Assembly (NCBI GenBank): GCA_026989655.1 | Contig: JALSIX010000009.1 | Location: 1 to 33,101, forward strand | From: Caldilineaceae bacterium | Lineage (GTDB): Bacteria > Chloroflexota > Anaerolineae > Caldilineales > Caldilineaceae | Reading direction: 5' to 3' | DNA: 33,101 nucleotides | Part shown: positions 26,777 through 31,205 of the stretch, piece after piece | Position numbering within the stretch: the stretch's first letter is position 1 | Layout of the letters: every line of letters starts with the position of its first letter | The notes under the pieces: model-generated | Told to the model about the DNA's origin: nothing | Databases searched by the model: none | The model's input: only the letters and a program-made list of their open reading frames with translations | Translations under genes and position numbers: made by a program

Positions 26777-26934
26777 CACACACGCGACCTCCTCACACGC
26801 CTATTCGTAGTCGATGGTGAGCCTCTGTCCCGGCTCTCCAAGGCCGGGCCCGGCTCAGGATGCTGGGCGCACCAGACGCTTCCACTGCGCCCCAGAACTG
26901 CCCCATGGAGCCCACGGGAAAGGAGAGCGGAACG

Positions 26935-28179
26935 ATGGACCGGCTGCATATTCACCGGCAACCCCGTGTCGTTCCTCTGCGGAGGACACGGTTCGTCGTC
27001 CTTCTGGCCCTCCTGGGAATGCTGGCCCTGGGCCAGAGCACGGCCCGGGCCGGGGAGTTCATCAGCCAGGATCTGTACCGCCTGCCCCCCGGGGAGACCC
27101 TCCGGGATGACCTCTACGTGGGCGCCGACCAGGTCTACATCGAAGGCACCTTGGACGGCGATCTCTACGCGGCCGCTGCGGAGATCCACATCACCGGCAC
27201 GGTCACCGGAGACGTCTTCGCTGCGGCCAACAGCGTGATCGTCCGGGGACCCGTGGGCGACGATCTCTTTGCGGCCGGCAACGCGGTGTGGGTGGACGCA
27301 CCGGTGGGCGGCGACCTCCTCGCGGCCGGCGGCGGCGACGTTCCCGGCCTCCCCGTCTCCTCGGCCGAGCCCGGCGTCCATCTCACCGAGCGGGCCCAGG
27401 TGGGCGGCGACAGCATCCTCATGGGCGGCCGGGTGGAGATGGCCGGCCAGATCGGGCAGGATCTCCATGCCTTCGGCGCCCAGGTCCAGCTCCGGGGACG
27501 GGTGGCCGGAGACGCCCGCATCTCCGCAGAGCGCCTGGCCGTGGATCCCGAGACCCGGATCCAGGGCATGCTGCGTTACTCCGTGCCAGAGGAGCTGAAA
27601 CAGGTGGACGCCATCGCGGGACAGGTCGTCTACGAGCCCCCCGAGACCGAGGAACGCCCCTCTCCGCTCATGCAGGCGTTCCGCTGGGGCATCCGCACGG
27701 TGCTGGTCTTCGTGGGCTTCCTGGTCCTGGGCCTGGCCCTGGGACGCCTGGCCCCCGGCCTCCTCCAGCGCCCGCTGCAGGCCCTCCAGGAACGGCCCCT
27801 GGAGACCGGAGTCTGGGGTCTGGTGGCCGGGATCCTCCTGGCCCTGATCCCCCTGCTCTCCGGGGTGCTGGTCCTGTTCACCTGGATCTTCTGGGGGCTG
27901 TGGCCGGCCCTCCTGGTGGCGCTGGTCCTCTTCGGCAGCGTCCTGCTCCTGTGGACCTTCAGCCCGGTGATCACCGGGCTCTGGCTGGGCGAGCGCATCC
28001 GGGAGCGCCTCGGCACCCCCCTTCCCGTGTGGATGGGGCTGGCCCTGGGGCTGGCCGTTCTGGTCTTCCTGGGAAGGCTGCCCTACGTGGGCGGGCTGGT
28101 CTACCTGGTCAGCTTCCTCCTGGCCCTGGGCGGGCTGCTCCGAGGCCCGCGAGTTGCCCGTTCGGCCCAGGCCGGGTAG
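26935..28179 (+). CDS. Bactofilin-like beta-helix domain fused to a membrane domain
   Basis: A 414-residue exported membrane protein. Start ATG 26935 has AAGGAGAG 7 bases upstream and gives a signal-like helix ([20 protein letters not shown]). Residues about 45-215 are short repeated beta strands of the polymer-forming/bactofilin type: Gly-Asp-(L/V)-(Y/F/L)-Ala-Ala recurs ([56 protein letters not shown]), each about 18 residues. After a linker there are four to five TM helices (about 250-400). Bactofilins are usually cytoplasmic scaffolds without a signal peptide; this one would place the beta-helix outside. A role in envelope organisation is an inference. Confidence 0.78.
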
Positions 28180-28189
28180 GATAGAGGAC

Positions 28190-28438
28190 ATGCTACGCAT
28201 CGACGAGACCCTCTACATCGGGGATGTGGTGCGCATGCGCAAGCCCCATCCCTGCGGTGGATACGAGTGGACGGTGACCCGGGTCGGCGCGGACATCGGC
28301 ATCGTCTGCCAGACCTGCGGCCACCGGGTGCTCATGCCTCGCCGGAAGTTCGCCCGGGCCGTGAAGGCCTTCGTCCGGCGAGGCCCCCACGCAACACCGT
28401 CCCAGAACCCAGGCAAGGACACGCCCCATGCACCGTGA
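28190..28438 (+). CDS. DUF951 family small zinc-ribbon-like protein
   Basis: An 82-residue protein. The core [37 protein letters not shown] and [12 protein letters not shown] is the DUF951 signature. The cysteines (PCGG, CQTCGH) suggest a metal site or nucleic-acid binding, and the basic C-terminal segment agrees. Start ATG 28190 lies 11 bases after the previous stop with AGAGGA just before it. It overlaps the NIF3-like gene by 11 bases. The family's function is unknown. Confidence 0.82.
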
Positions 28439-29180
28439 CGAACTGGTCGCCTACCTGGACGAATACCTGCGCATCCACGAGATCCAGGACTACGGGCCCC
28501 AGGGGCTCCAGGTGGAAGGGCGGGAGACCGTCCACAAGATCGTGGGCATGGTGGATGCCCAGATCCCGTGTGTAGAGGCCGCTCTGGCCCACGGCGCGGA
28601 CTTCGTCCTGGTCCACCACGGCATCTTCTGGCGAGAACCGCAGCGGCTGGTGGGGGGCTTTCGGAAGCTGGTCCAGCTCTACCTGGGCAACAACCTGAAC
28701 CTCTACGCCGCGCATCTGGCCCTGGACGCCCACCCCCAGGTGGGGAACAACGTGACATTGGCCCAACGCCTGGGGCTCACCGTGGTGGACCGGTGGGCCT
28801 CGGTGAACGGGACCCCCATCGGAGTCCTGGCCGAGAGCCCAGAACCCCTGGAGGTGGACCAGGTGGTGGCCCGATACGAGGCCCAGGTGGGACCGGTGCT
28901 CCAGGTCCAGAGCCATGGCCCCGCAGCGGTACGCCGGGTGGGGATCCTGAGTGGTTCCGGGGCATCCCACATCCAGGAGGCCGCTCGGCTGGGCTGCGAC
29001 CTCCTCCTGACCGGGGAGACCAGCCACGCAGCCTACTACGATGGGCAGACAGCCGGCATCCACGTGATCTACGGGGGCCACTACACCACGGAGACCGTAG
29101 GGGTCCAGGCCCTGGGCCGGCACCTCCAGGAACGGTTCGACGTGGAGTTCGAGTTCGTGGACCTGCCCACCGGGCTGTGA
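28428..29180 (+). CDS. NIF3/YbgI-like dinuclear metal-centre protein
   Basis: A 250-residue protein of the short NIF3 form without the extra middle domain. Metal ligands expected for the family are visible: LVHHGIFW (two His), [10 protein letters not shown], and the C-terminal GGHYTTET with His and Glu. Members form hexameric rings with two metal ions per subunit. Some act as GTP cyclohydrolase-like hydrolases, but the general role is not settled. The ATG lies inside the end of the DUF951 gene, so translation is coupled. A strong hairpin terminator follows 24 bases after the stop. Confidence 0.9.
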
Positions 29181-29204: not shown

Positions 29205-29235
29205 ACAGGGCAGCCAGCGAATCTGGCTGCCCTGT
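29205..29235. terminator. Bidirectional hairpin terminator between the NIF3-like and SelW-like genes
   Basis: A perfect 13-bp stem (ACAGGGCAGCCAG / CTGGCTGCCCTGT) with a 5-base loop sits between two convergent stop codons (29180 and 29257). On the plus strand it is followed by TCTGTGCCCCTCTT, which is T-rich only in part, so it is a strong stem with a weak tail. Confidence 0.75.
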
Positions 29236-29256: not shown

Positions 29257-29532
29257 TCACTGCTCCTGGGCCACCGGGCTCACGCCCAGTTTCTCCGCGA
29301 AGAGCCGCTCCAGCTCTCCCTCCTCCACATGGCGCCCCTCGGCTTTCTTGCTGAAGACCAACACATCATCGGCCAGGACCTCGAAGCGGCCCCCGCCAGA
29401 GGGAATCAGGGTGAGGCTCTCGATATAGGGGGTGAACTTCTCCAGGAGTTCCGCCGTCGCCCGGACGGCGCGAGGGGTGTAGTTTCACTGAACGCAGTAC
29501 TCGATGCTCACCTTGTACTTCCGCACGTCCAT
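29257..29532 (-). CDS. SelW/Rdx-family selenoprotein with in-frame UGA (Sec) codon
   Basis: A 92-codon frame read through a TGA at codon 16 (29485-29487) gives a 91-residue Rdx (SelT/SelW/SelH) thioredoxin-like protein. The redox motif EYC-V-Q-[UGA]-NYTPRAVRA is exactly the family's CxxC/CxxU site with selenocysteine as the second residue. Downstream, [40 protein letters not shown] and [11 protein letters not shown] continue the family pattern to the stop at 29257-29259, so the frame is conserved after the TGA. Start ATG 29532 follows a strong AAGGAGGG. A hairpin starts 14 bases after the UGA (29470-29452, minus strand). Selenocysteine machinery genes are not in this window. A sequencing error TGC/TGT to TGA is the main alternative, but the hairpin speaks against it. 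Likely role: thiol/selenol redox protein. Confidence 0.85.
29452..29470 (-). promoter_or_regulatory. Bacterial SECIS-like stem-loop inside the selenoprotein gene
   Basis: On the minus strand CGCCGTC (29470-29464) pairs perfectly with GACGGCG (29458-29452) around the loop CGGGC. The loop begins 21 bases after the UGA and has a G in its first two positions. This fits the general pattern of bacterial SECIS elements that SelB binds: an upper stem of several base pairs, a small loop with an early G, and this distance from the UGA. Confidence 0.7.
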
Positions 29533-29676
29533 GGAATCCCTCCTTGCAGACGGATGCCGGCTTTGCCGCCGGAGAGAATGGAACAAGGGCACAGCCCACA
29601 GTGTCCTTCACGGGAATCCCCGGGAGCCTCCTGGGCCCTCGGCCCGGATCGACCGATTCGTGGGCCGCGCCCACCT

Positions 29677-29706
29677 ATTATACCGGTTTTGTTCGCCCAA
29701 TGCGAA
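29677..29706 (-). promoter_or_regulatory. Promoter of the selenoprotein gene
   Basis: On the minus strand TTCGCA (29706-29701), an 18-bp spacer and a consensus TATAAT (29682-29677). Transcription would start near 29670, leaving a leader of about 138 bases. Confidence 0.55.
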
Positions 29707-29861: not shown

Positions 29862-31205
29862 ATGAGTGAGCACAACCCGAGACGACGTTCCGGGCCCAAC
29901 CCCATGGACCCGCTGTCGAGTCCATCACCGGCCGAGCCCCCACCGAGGACAGGGAGGATCCGCGGCGGGCGCTGGAGCCGTCGTGGCTTCCTGCTCGGCC
30001 TGGCAGCCGGCGCCGGGGTCCTGGCCGGATGCCGCCCCCCCGGCCCTACGTCCCCTACCCCTACGCCCAGCAAGACCCCCACCCAGGGGAGCCCTTCGTC
30101 CCTGCCCACCTCCACCCCGGAGGAACACTCGGTCTACCTGCCCAATGTGGGCAATGCAGGACCTGCCGTCGAACCCCGGACGACCCCCACGCCTCCCAAG
30201 GCCACGCCAGCTCCCCAGGCCCCGCCCCCCACCCCCACGCCCACGGTGACGCCCTTCCCGCCGGGGCCGCCCAGCAAGCTGGGCCTCTTCGTGGCCCGCA
30301 ACCTGCCGGAGATCTTCCGGCTGCTACGCACAGGCGGCGTGGCCGTGGTCAAGACCTTGGAGCTGGATCCGAACTTCGCGGCCGAGATCAAGCGGACCTC
30401 CCCGGGCACCAAGCTCATCGGCCGCATCGACCTGCCCCAGCTCCGTCTGGCCGAGCTGGACCCTCTTCCGGCCGCCCGGGCCTTCGTGGAACAGCTCCTG
30501 ATCTACGCCGGCGACCCGGCCCGACAGCCCTATTTCGACGGCTGGGAGTCCTACAACGAGCCCGTGGCCGGCAGCCCAGAGGAGATGAAGCGCTACGCGG
30601 ACTTCGAGGCCGAGCGGGTTCGGCTGCTGGCTGCCCGAGGCATCCGCAGCGTGATCGGCAACTTCGGCACCGGTCAGCCCCCGCTGGAGCTGTGGGAACA
30701 GTTCCTGCCCGCGGTCCAGGCCGCCCACGAACACGGGGGCTGGCTGGGGCTGCACGAGTACGCCGCGCCCACCATCTACTATCTGACCACCCGAGATGGT
30801 CTGGGACGATATCCGGGCATCTCGCCCCAGGACACCGGATGGTTGACCCTTCGCTACCGGAAGGTTTACAATCAGGTCCTGGGACCGGCCGGACTGGCGA
30901 TCCCCCTGGTGATGACCGAGCTGGGGGTCGACGGCCTGGTGGCAGATCGCCCTGGGCCGCCCAATGCCCGGGGATGGCAGCATTTCCAACAGTACTGGGC
31001 CGAGAACGGATACGGCCTGTGGGGGCCGGGGGCCTACGTGGAGCAACTGGTGTGGTACGACCAGGCCATGCAGCAGGACGACTACGTGATCGGCGGCTGT
31101 ATCTACGCCCTGGCCGCGAGCACCGGTTGGCAGAGCTACGAGATCCTGGGCCCCGTGGTGGACGTGCTGGAACAGTATTTCCAGGTCCACGCGCCCACCG
31201 GGTGA
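29862..31205 (+). CDS. Tat-exported lipoprotein with clan GH-A-like glycosidase domain
   Basis: A 447-residue exported protein. A long charged n-region ends in the twin-arginine motif SRRGFL (39-44), then a hydrophobic core and lipobox LAGC with Cys57, so a folded lipid-anchored protein outside the membrane is expected. Residues about 58-142 are a Pro/Thr/Ser linker. The catalytic part (about 145-447) is TIM-barrel-like: DGWESYNEP with Glu233 as probable acid/base and [12 protein letters not shown] with Glu353 as probable nucleophile. This pairing (NEP, then a later TELG) is typical of clan GH-A retaining glycosidases. The exact family and sugar are not clear. It has its own promoter; the next gene starts within 80 bases and is probably cotranscribed. 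Confidence 0.8.

Follow-up and report, generated by a model that had tools for sequence, protein, structure and literature searches.

A short gene on the minus strand of the contig analysed here is, with a probability that we put at roughly 0.96, an intact and probably monocistronic selenoprotein gene of the SelW-like Rdx family, in which the UGA at codon 16 would be translated as selenocysteine (Sec) by means of SelB, tRNA-Sec and a hairpin in the message. The match to Rdx, the Sec machinery of the host, the conservation of the TGA among relatives, the putative SECIS and the association of the gene with selB together make it very probably a genuine SelW-like selenoprotein gene. The window, by which we mean the whole stretch of DNA analysed, is the entire contig C9 (33101 bases) of an assembly of 4.09 Mb in 150 contigs that is 99.2% complete and 2.7% contaminated. 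Judged by its gene content, the host may belong to Chloroflexota. The features discussed are collected in Table 1.

Table 1. Features in and around the predicted selenoprotein gene (window coordinates)
Feature	Position	Strand	Basis or remark
Predicted SelW-like (Rdx, PF10262) selenoprotein gene	29257..29532	-	91 codons plus TGA stop; profile, PDB and structure matches
Ribosome binding site AAGGAGG	29539..29545	-	6 nt before ATG; read directly
In-frame TGA, codon 16, predicted to be read as Sec (CVQU)	29485..29487	-	Position common to 98/108 homologue rows
Putative SECIS hairpin of bacterial type with a stem of 7 bp (CGCCGTC/GACGGCG) and the loop CGGGC	29452..29470	-	Fold, register, loop G
Promoter-like site TTCGCA-18-TATAAT	29677..29706	-	Promoter/terminator scan
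Perfect 13-bp inverted repeat, loop ATTCG	29205..29235	.	Read directly; between convergent Rdx and NIF3 genes

The gene starts with an ATG at 29532-29530 and ends at an ordinary TGA stop at 29259-29257. An earlier note on this DNA had described a minus-strand frame with a strong ribosome site running through a TGA at codon 16; all of its coordinates were confirmed, and so was its claim that this TGA occupies the second Cys position of a CxxC or CxxU motif (Cys13-Val-Gln-[TGA]16, hereafter C13-V-Q-U16). The frame had also been said to stay family-like past the TGA, and it does: the downstream part alone matches the Pfam Rdx model over 74 of its 75 residues (E 5.8e-12). Continuity of the frame across the TGA is far beyond chance.

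With the TGA translated as Cys, the read-through protein matches Pfam Rdx (PF10262) with an E of 1.8e-20 and 73.4 bits (cut-off 22.6), and the NCBIfam SelT/SelW/SelH model TIGR02174 with 57.1 bits (cut-off 34.2); against the equivalog model NF041051 (SelTWH_Campy) it reaches 85.9 bits, for a cut-off of 88. The window gene, with one TGA inside, was the sole match in a scan of its own genome with the Rdx profile. An alignment of 50 of the 108 homologue rows described below has C13, residue 16 (Sec or Cys), G48 and S61 as invariant columns, and served as input for an AlphaFold2 model (mean pLDDT 94.3). The modelled fold has a strand and a helix followed by three strands and two helices; strand 1 covers residues 6-13 and ends with the CxxU motif (13-16), and helix 1 covers residues 19-36, an arrangement in which CxxU lies between strand 1 and helix 1 as it does in thioredoxin-like folds. 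The PDB structures closest to the model are SelW-related bacterial proteins (2fa8, TM 0.79, rmsd 1.1), followed by MIEN1 (2ljk) and mouse selenoprotein W (2npb); thioredoxins match far more weakly. SelW-related PDB chains were matched by sequence as well. The comparison with Rdx family members that the earlier note had proposed thus places the read-through protein as a full-length member by profile, sequence and structure, and its matches suggest a SelW-like protein, not specifically a SelT or a SelH.

Among these structures the bacterial Cys-form Rdx proteins 2fa8, 2p0g, 3dex, 2obk, 2oka and 2ojl resemble the window protein in family, by sequence, and in fold. Those aligned by residue (2fa8, 2p0g and 3dex) differ from it in having Cys at the Sec position and, eight residues later, Trp rather than Arg, Ser or Gly. 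Mouse selenoprotein W shares the fold (TM 0.60, rmsd 3.3, E 0.01) but is distant in sequence (phmmer E 1.3), and its kind differs in that eukaryotic SECIS elements are described as lying in the 3' UTR (PMC12013277).

The genes that the earlier note had named for a search, selA, selB, selD and that for tRNA-Sec (selC), are all present in the same assembly. The tRNA-Sec scores 73.6 bits, over its Rfam cut-off, and is also called by ARAGORN, with anticodon TCA; selB scores 325 bits (cut-off 242), selA 582 bits and selD 332 bits. The selD gene (L019, C118:17962-18957) has one in-frame TGA of its own, at U16 in ACAGUASK, and the gene for the alpha subunit of formate dehydrogenase, FdhA (L130, G000:C94:5121-7124), has an in-frame TGA in NCSRAUHAP; we take both to be the usual Sec sites of these families. 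Six protein families were sought in this genome (Rdx, selB, selA, selD, Fdh-alpha and AhpC-TSA), and for three of them the best match contains one in-frame TGA; none was found in the eight matches to AhpC-TSA (peroxiredoxins). This complete machinery, together with the TGA in relatives and the full-length Rdx match, supports the earlier claims that the UGA is read as Sec and that the host decodes Sec.

Homologues were collected from a sample of 200 genomes, the window's own included, 101 of which have an Rdx match. A search of the genome contigs with the single window protein gave one locus. The resulting 108 Rdx rows comprise the window gene, 106 matches in relatives and one metagenome-assembled genome (MAG) contig. 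At the fourth position of the motif 98 rows have TGA (from 97 genomes and the MAG contig), and the other 10 have Cys; the latter, with CxxC in place of CxxU, are the Cys homologues that the earlier note had suggested looking for. An in-frame UGA is thereby aligned with the Cys of homologues, as is characteristic of selenoproteins, and the TGA appears to be read as Sec in nearly all relatives that carry the gene.

The distribution of selB points the same way. With genomes assigned from the E-value ranking among the matches listed, selB is over its cut-off in 165 of the 200 genomes: in 95 of the 97 with a TGA form, versus 70 of the 103 others (Fisher p 3.6e-9, uncorrected for kinship). Of the two TGA-form genomes outside this count, G101 has tRNA-Sec and selA over cut-off; G002, which is 85% complete and in 1170 contigs, has none of selB, selA and tRNA-Sec over cut-off, and we count it against the Sec reading. 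Four genomes (G022, G176, G186 and G193) have Cys forms only, with selB below cut-off or absent in each. From selB alone all four would seem to lack the Sec machinery; this is ruled out by the presence of tRNA-Sec and selA in G176 and G193, which we count against our preferred explanation. Only in the case of G022 is absence of the machinery therefore clear; it is likely in that of G186, which lacks selA and whose tRNA-Sec match is borderline (50.5 bits, just above the 47-bit cut-off). G022 also has a sub-cut-off selA-like match that reads through one TGA (G022:C48:12313-13155), possibly a broken paralogue.

A tree was made from 76 rows, namely all 10 Cys rows and 66 of the 98 Sec rows (near-copies being dropped), over 87 columns, with many forks unresolved. 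The Sec/Cys label requires three changes on this tree, of which at least two are forced by well-supported branches. Seven Cys rows (L039, L053, L054, L057, L069, L078 and L084) make up a single, long-branched clade; among them, five come from genomes that also hold a TGA form (G001, G003, G013, G014 and G026) and are therefore paralogues there. For six of these rows the surrounding open frame has 247-409 codons, which may point to an additional N-terminal part. A second Cys clade has two rows, from G193 and G003. The remaining Cys row, L122 from G186, pairs with a Sec row on a long branch whose placement is unsure. It is the single candidate that the tree offers for a recent in-place replacement of Sec by Cys, and its genome has neither selA nor a selB over cut-off; the tree does not fix which way the other changes went. 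The TGA-form row L129 (CALKOE010000502.1), filed as an Acidimicrobiales MAG, groups within the rows of the class, with families f36 and f15, and would reflect either a binning error or a transfer.

Measured from the TGA, the stem of the window's putative SECIS starts at 14 nt and its loop at 21 nt; the second base of the loop is G. The bacterial SECIS model, as quoted in PMC13188914, has a loop of 3-9 nt, a stem of 4-16 bp, a minimum free energy of at most -7.5 kcal/mol, a G in the first two loop positions and a spacing of 16-37 nt from the UGA; the window hairpin falls within it, with a loop of 5 nt, a stem of 7 bp, a spacing of 21 nt and a fold of -13.9 kcal/mol. Among the 98 TGA rows, 90 satisfy a strict definition of four base pairs plus the loop G, and the other eight fail mostly through a mismatch under the loop; 88 reach -7.5 kcal/mol and 10 miss it. 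The energy itself carries no signal: that of the window hairpin is not significant against dinucleotide shuffles (z -0.90; 34 of 200 did at least as well), and synonymous-codon resampling over the 98 genes gave a mean z of -0.28, beside -0.48 and -0.31 for control stretches.

Pairing was compared among registers in 63 of the 98 TGA rows, left after dereplication, for 6-bp stems with loops of 3-18 nt; columns are numbered with the T of the TGA as 0, such that columns 19-24 pair with 33-28. This register was the best of those scanned, with 5.52 of 6 positions paired versus 5.03 expected from column make-up. For the register one step further out (columns 18-23) an average of 5.05 was found, versus 4.66 (sd 0.04, maximum 4.83) in a null of 5000 swaps of 3' arms between rows, uncorrected for relatedness; the outer pair 18:34 forms in just 29% of rows, among them that of the window. 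Column pair 20:32, in which both members are third codon positions, shows co-changes between the two arms: it is CG in 51 rows, TA in six, GC in one, GT in one and unpaired in four. In the pairing excess of single pairs it is exceeded by pairs 27:38, 17:27 and 3:9 outside the hairpin, which we count against the SECIS.

Loop column 25 is G in 63/63 dereplicated rows and in all 98 TGA rows. This G is the middle base of the eighth codon after the UGA, so that the residue encoded is only ever Arg (56 rows), Ser (40) or Gly (2). Where it is Ser, the codon is AGY in 40 of 40 cases, versus 145 of the 375 Ser codons found 48-210 nt past the TGA in the same genes. In the 10 Cys rows the same residue is Ala (6), Trp (2) or Glu (2), and Trp too has a middle G. 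What speaks for the predicted hairpin is the register comparison across homologues and this choice of loop codon, and these only.

In the proposed mechanism the UGA at codon 16 would be decoded as Sec by SelB and tRNA-Sec (UCA anticodon), under the direction of the hairpin, whose small loop would present its guanine to SelB. Cys13 and Sec16 may then act as a pair, forming a reversible selenenylsulfide in thiol-disulfide redox chemistry of the thioredoxin or glutaredoxin kind. Of this probable scheme, the gene and the Sec machinery, and the conservation of both UGA and hairpin, are supported by sequence; a redox role for the product we infer solely from its motif and its fold.

Since the gene is short, it might be a pseudogene or artefact whose TGA is a genuine stop or stems from a sequencing error. 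The homologues strongly disfavour this: the same codon is TGA in 98 of 108 rows, from 97 genomes and the MAG contig, and the region after it stays conserved, with a mean column identity of 49% (50 rows); we consider the idea barely tenable. DNA never shows selenocysteine itself, and TGA might instead have a new meaning throughout the genome (Trp or Gly, for instance) or be decoded by some near-cognate tRNA. Such a reading is hard to reconcile with the complete Sec machinery, with Cys aligned to the TGA in all 10 homologues that lack it, with TGA serving as the ordinary stop of both the Rdx gene and its NIF3 neighbour, and with the in-frame TGAs of selD and FdhA at what we take to be their customary Sec sites, and its chances are in our view vanishingly small.

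A less improbable departure from the scheme accepts Sec insertion and makes the protein chiefly a carrier of selenium or metal, or a regulator, rather than a thiol/selenol oxidoreductase. It draws on the lack of a widely conserved neighbour pointing to a pathway and on the title of the bacterial PDB homologue 2obk, 'putative Se binding protein'. Set against it are the CxxC/CxxU motif, invariant in the 50 aligned rows and placed where strand 1 ends, ahead of helix 1, and a paper on the Sargasso Sea data (PMC1088965) in which CXXU is taken to suggest a redox function and a SelW protein is reported to interact with glutathione; we regard it as unlikely. The SelW-like selenoprotein with a putatively redox-active Cys/Sec pair remains our preferred reading.

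The surroundings of the gene say little about a substrate. Its convergent downstream neighbour is a NIF3-type gene (28428-29180, PF01784) with a TGA stop; the upstream neighbour (29862-31202) is divergent and has no Pfam match. Scanning of both strands between 28400 and 30000 gave two promoter-like sites, for a shuffle mean of 0.1. The same scan recognises terminators only if they have a T tail, and it gave none; the inverted repeat between the convergent genes is a possible shared terminator. Among the neighbourhood clusters listed (up to 12 members of each), the loci that share the divergent upstream neighbour and the convergent downstream one are of the window's own family; the clusters include antisense frames, so that their counts are not gene counts. 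No partner recurs across families among these clusters; the gene therefore looks apparently monocistronic here, and context gives no substrate. One co-directional gene follows Rdx repeatedly, in five loci of another family, f34 (L041, L043, L048, L068 and L070); by its sequence it may be a tRNA methyltransferase.

Elsewhere in the window there is a weak bactofilin match at 26860-28179 on the plus strand (PF04519, 29.8 bits, cut-off 27.9). A scan of the window at Rfam gathering level gave no match, and a 96-base tRNA-Ala (CGC) called by ARAGORN at 2198-2293 on the minus strand, with no Rfam support at that level, is probably false.

There are good descriptions of bacterial SelW-like selenoproteins (PMC1088965, PMC1794560, PMC2398784, PMC4607533, PMC11955535), which were listed as known already in 2005. 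They number 48 with Sec and seven with Cys in the Sargasso Sea set (PMC1088965) and head the table for the GOS set, with 427 Sec and 56 Cys forms (PMC2398784); a 2006 paper (PMC1794560) notes that organisms using Sec have few Cys forms, if any, and counts three selenoproteins in Chloroflexi. The window gene resembles the proteins of these three papers in its CxxU motif, its SelW family, the predominance of Sec over Cys and a SECIS that directly follows the UGA and bears a G in its small apical loop; as far as compared, it differs in lineage only, with no difference of kind. SelW genes were missed by annotation in Epsilonproteobacteria (PMC4607533), and for Campylobacter jejuni SelW full-length translation through the UGA was supported in 2025 by ribosome profiling and proteomics (PMC11955535). 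That gene, too, is small; it is unannotated, and its UGA is read by tRNA-Sec; the window protein differs in falling just below the NF041051 cut-off, and its read-through is predicted. Among literature on selenocysteine, selenoproteins or SECIS in Chloroflexota, Anaerolineae or Chloroflexi, no paper on this gene in the lineage was found by title.

We regard the window gene as a well-supported further case of the bacterial SelW-like selenoproteins already known, and it leaves the general picture of bacterial selenoproteins unchanged. What it adds is the rescue of a gene that standard gene calling likely cuts or misses, here and in 96 relatives, and the recognition that the selenium form is the rule among the genomes of the class that carry the gene (97 of 101). 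The aligned set is moreover a natural experiment on SECIS constraint versus protein constraint. Whether the SelW-like protein of this bacterial class is an obligate selenoprotein, whose SECIS would dictate part of the protein too, is a proposal for which we judge the odds to be about even.
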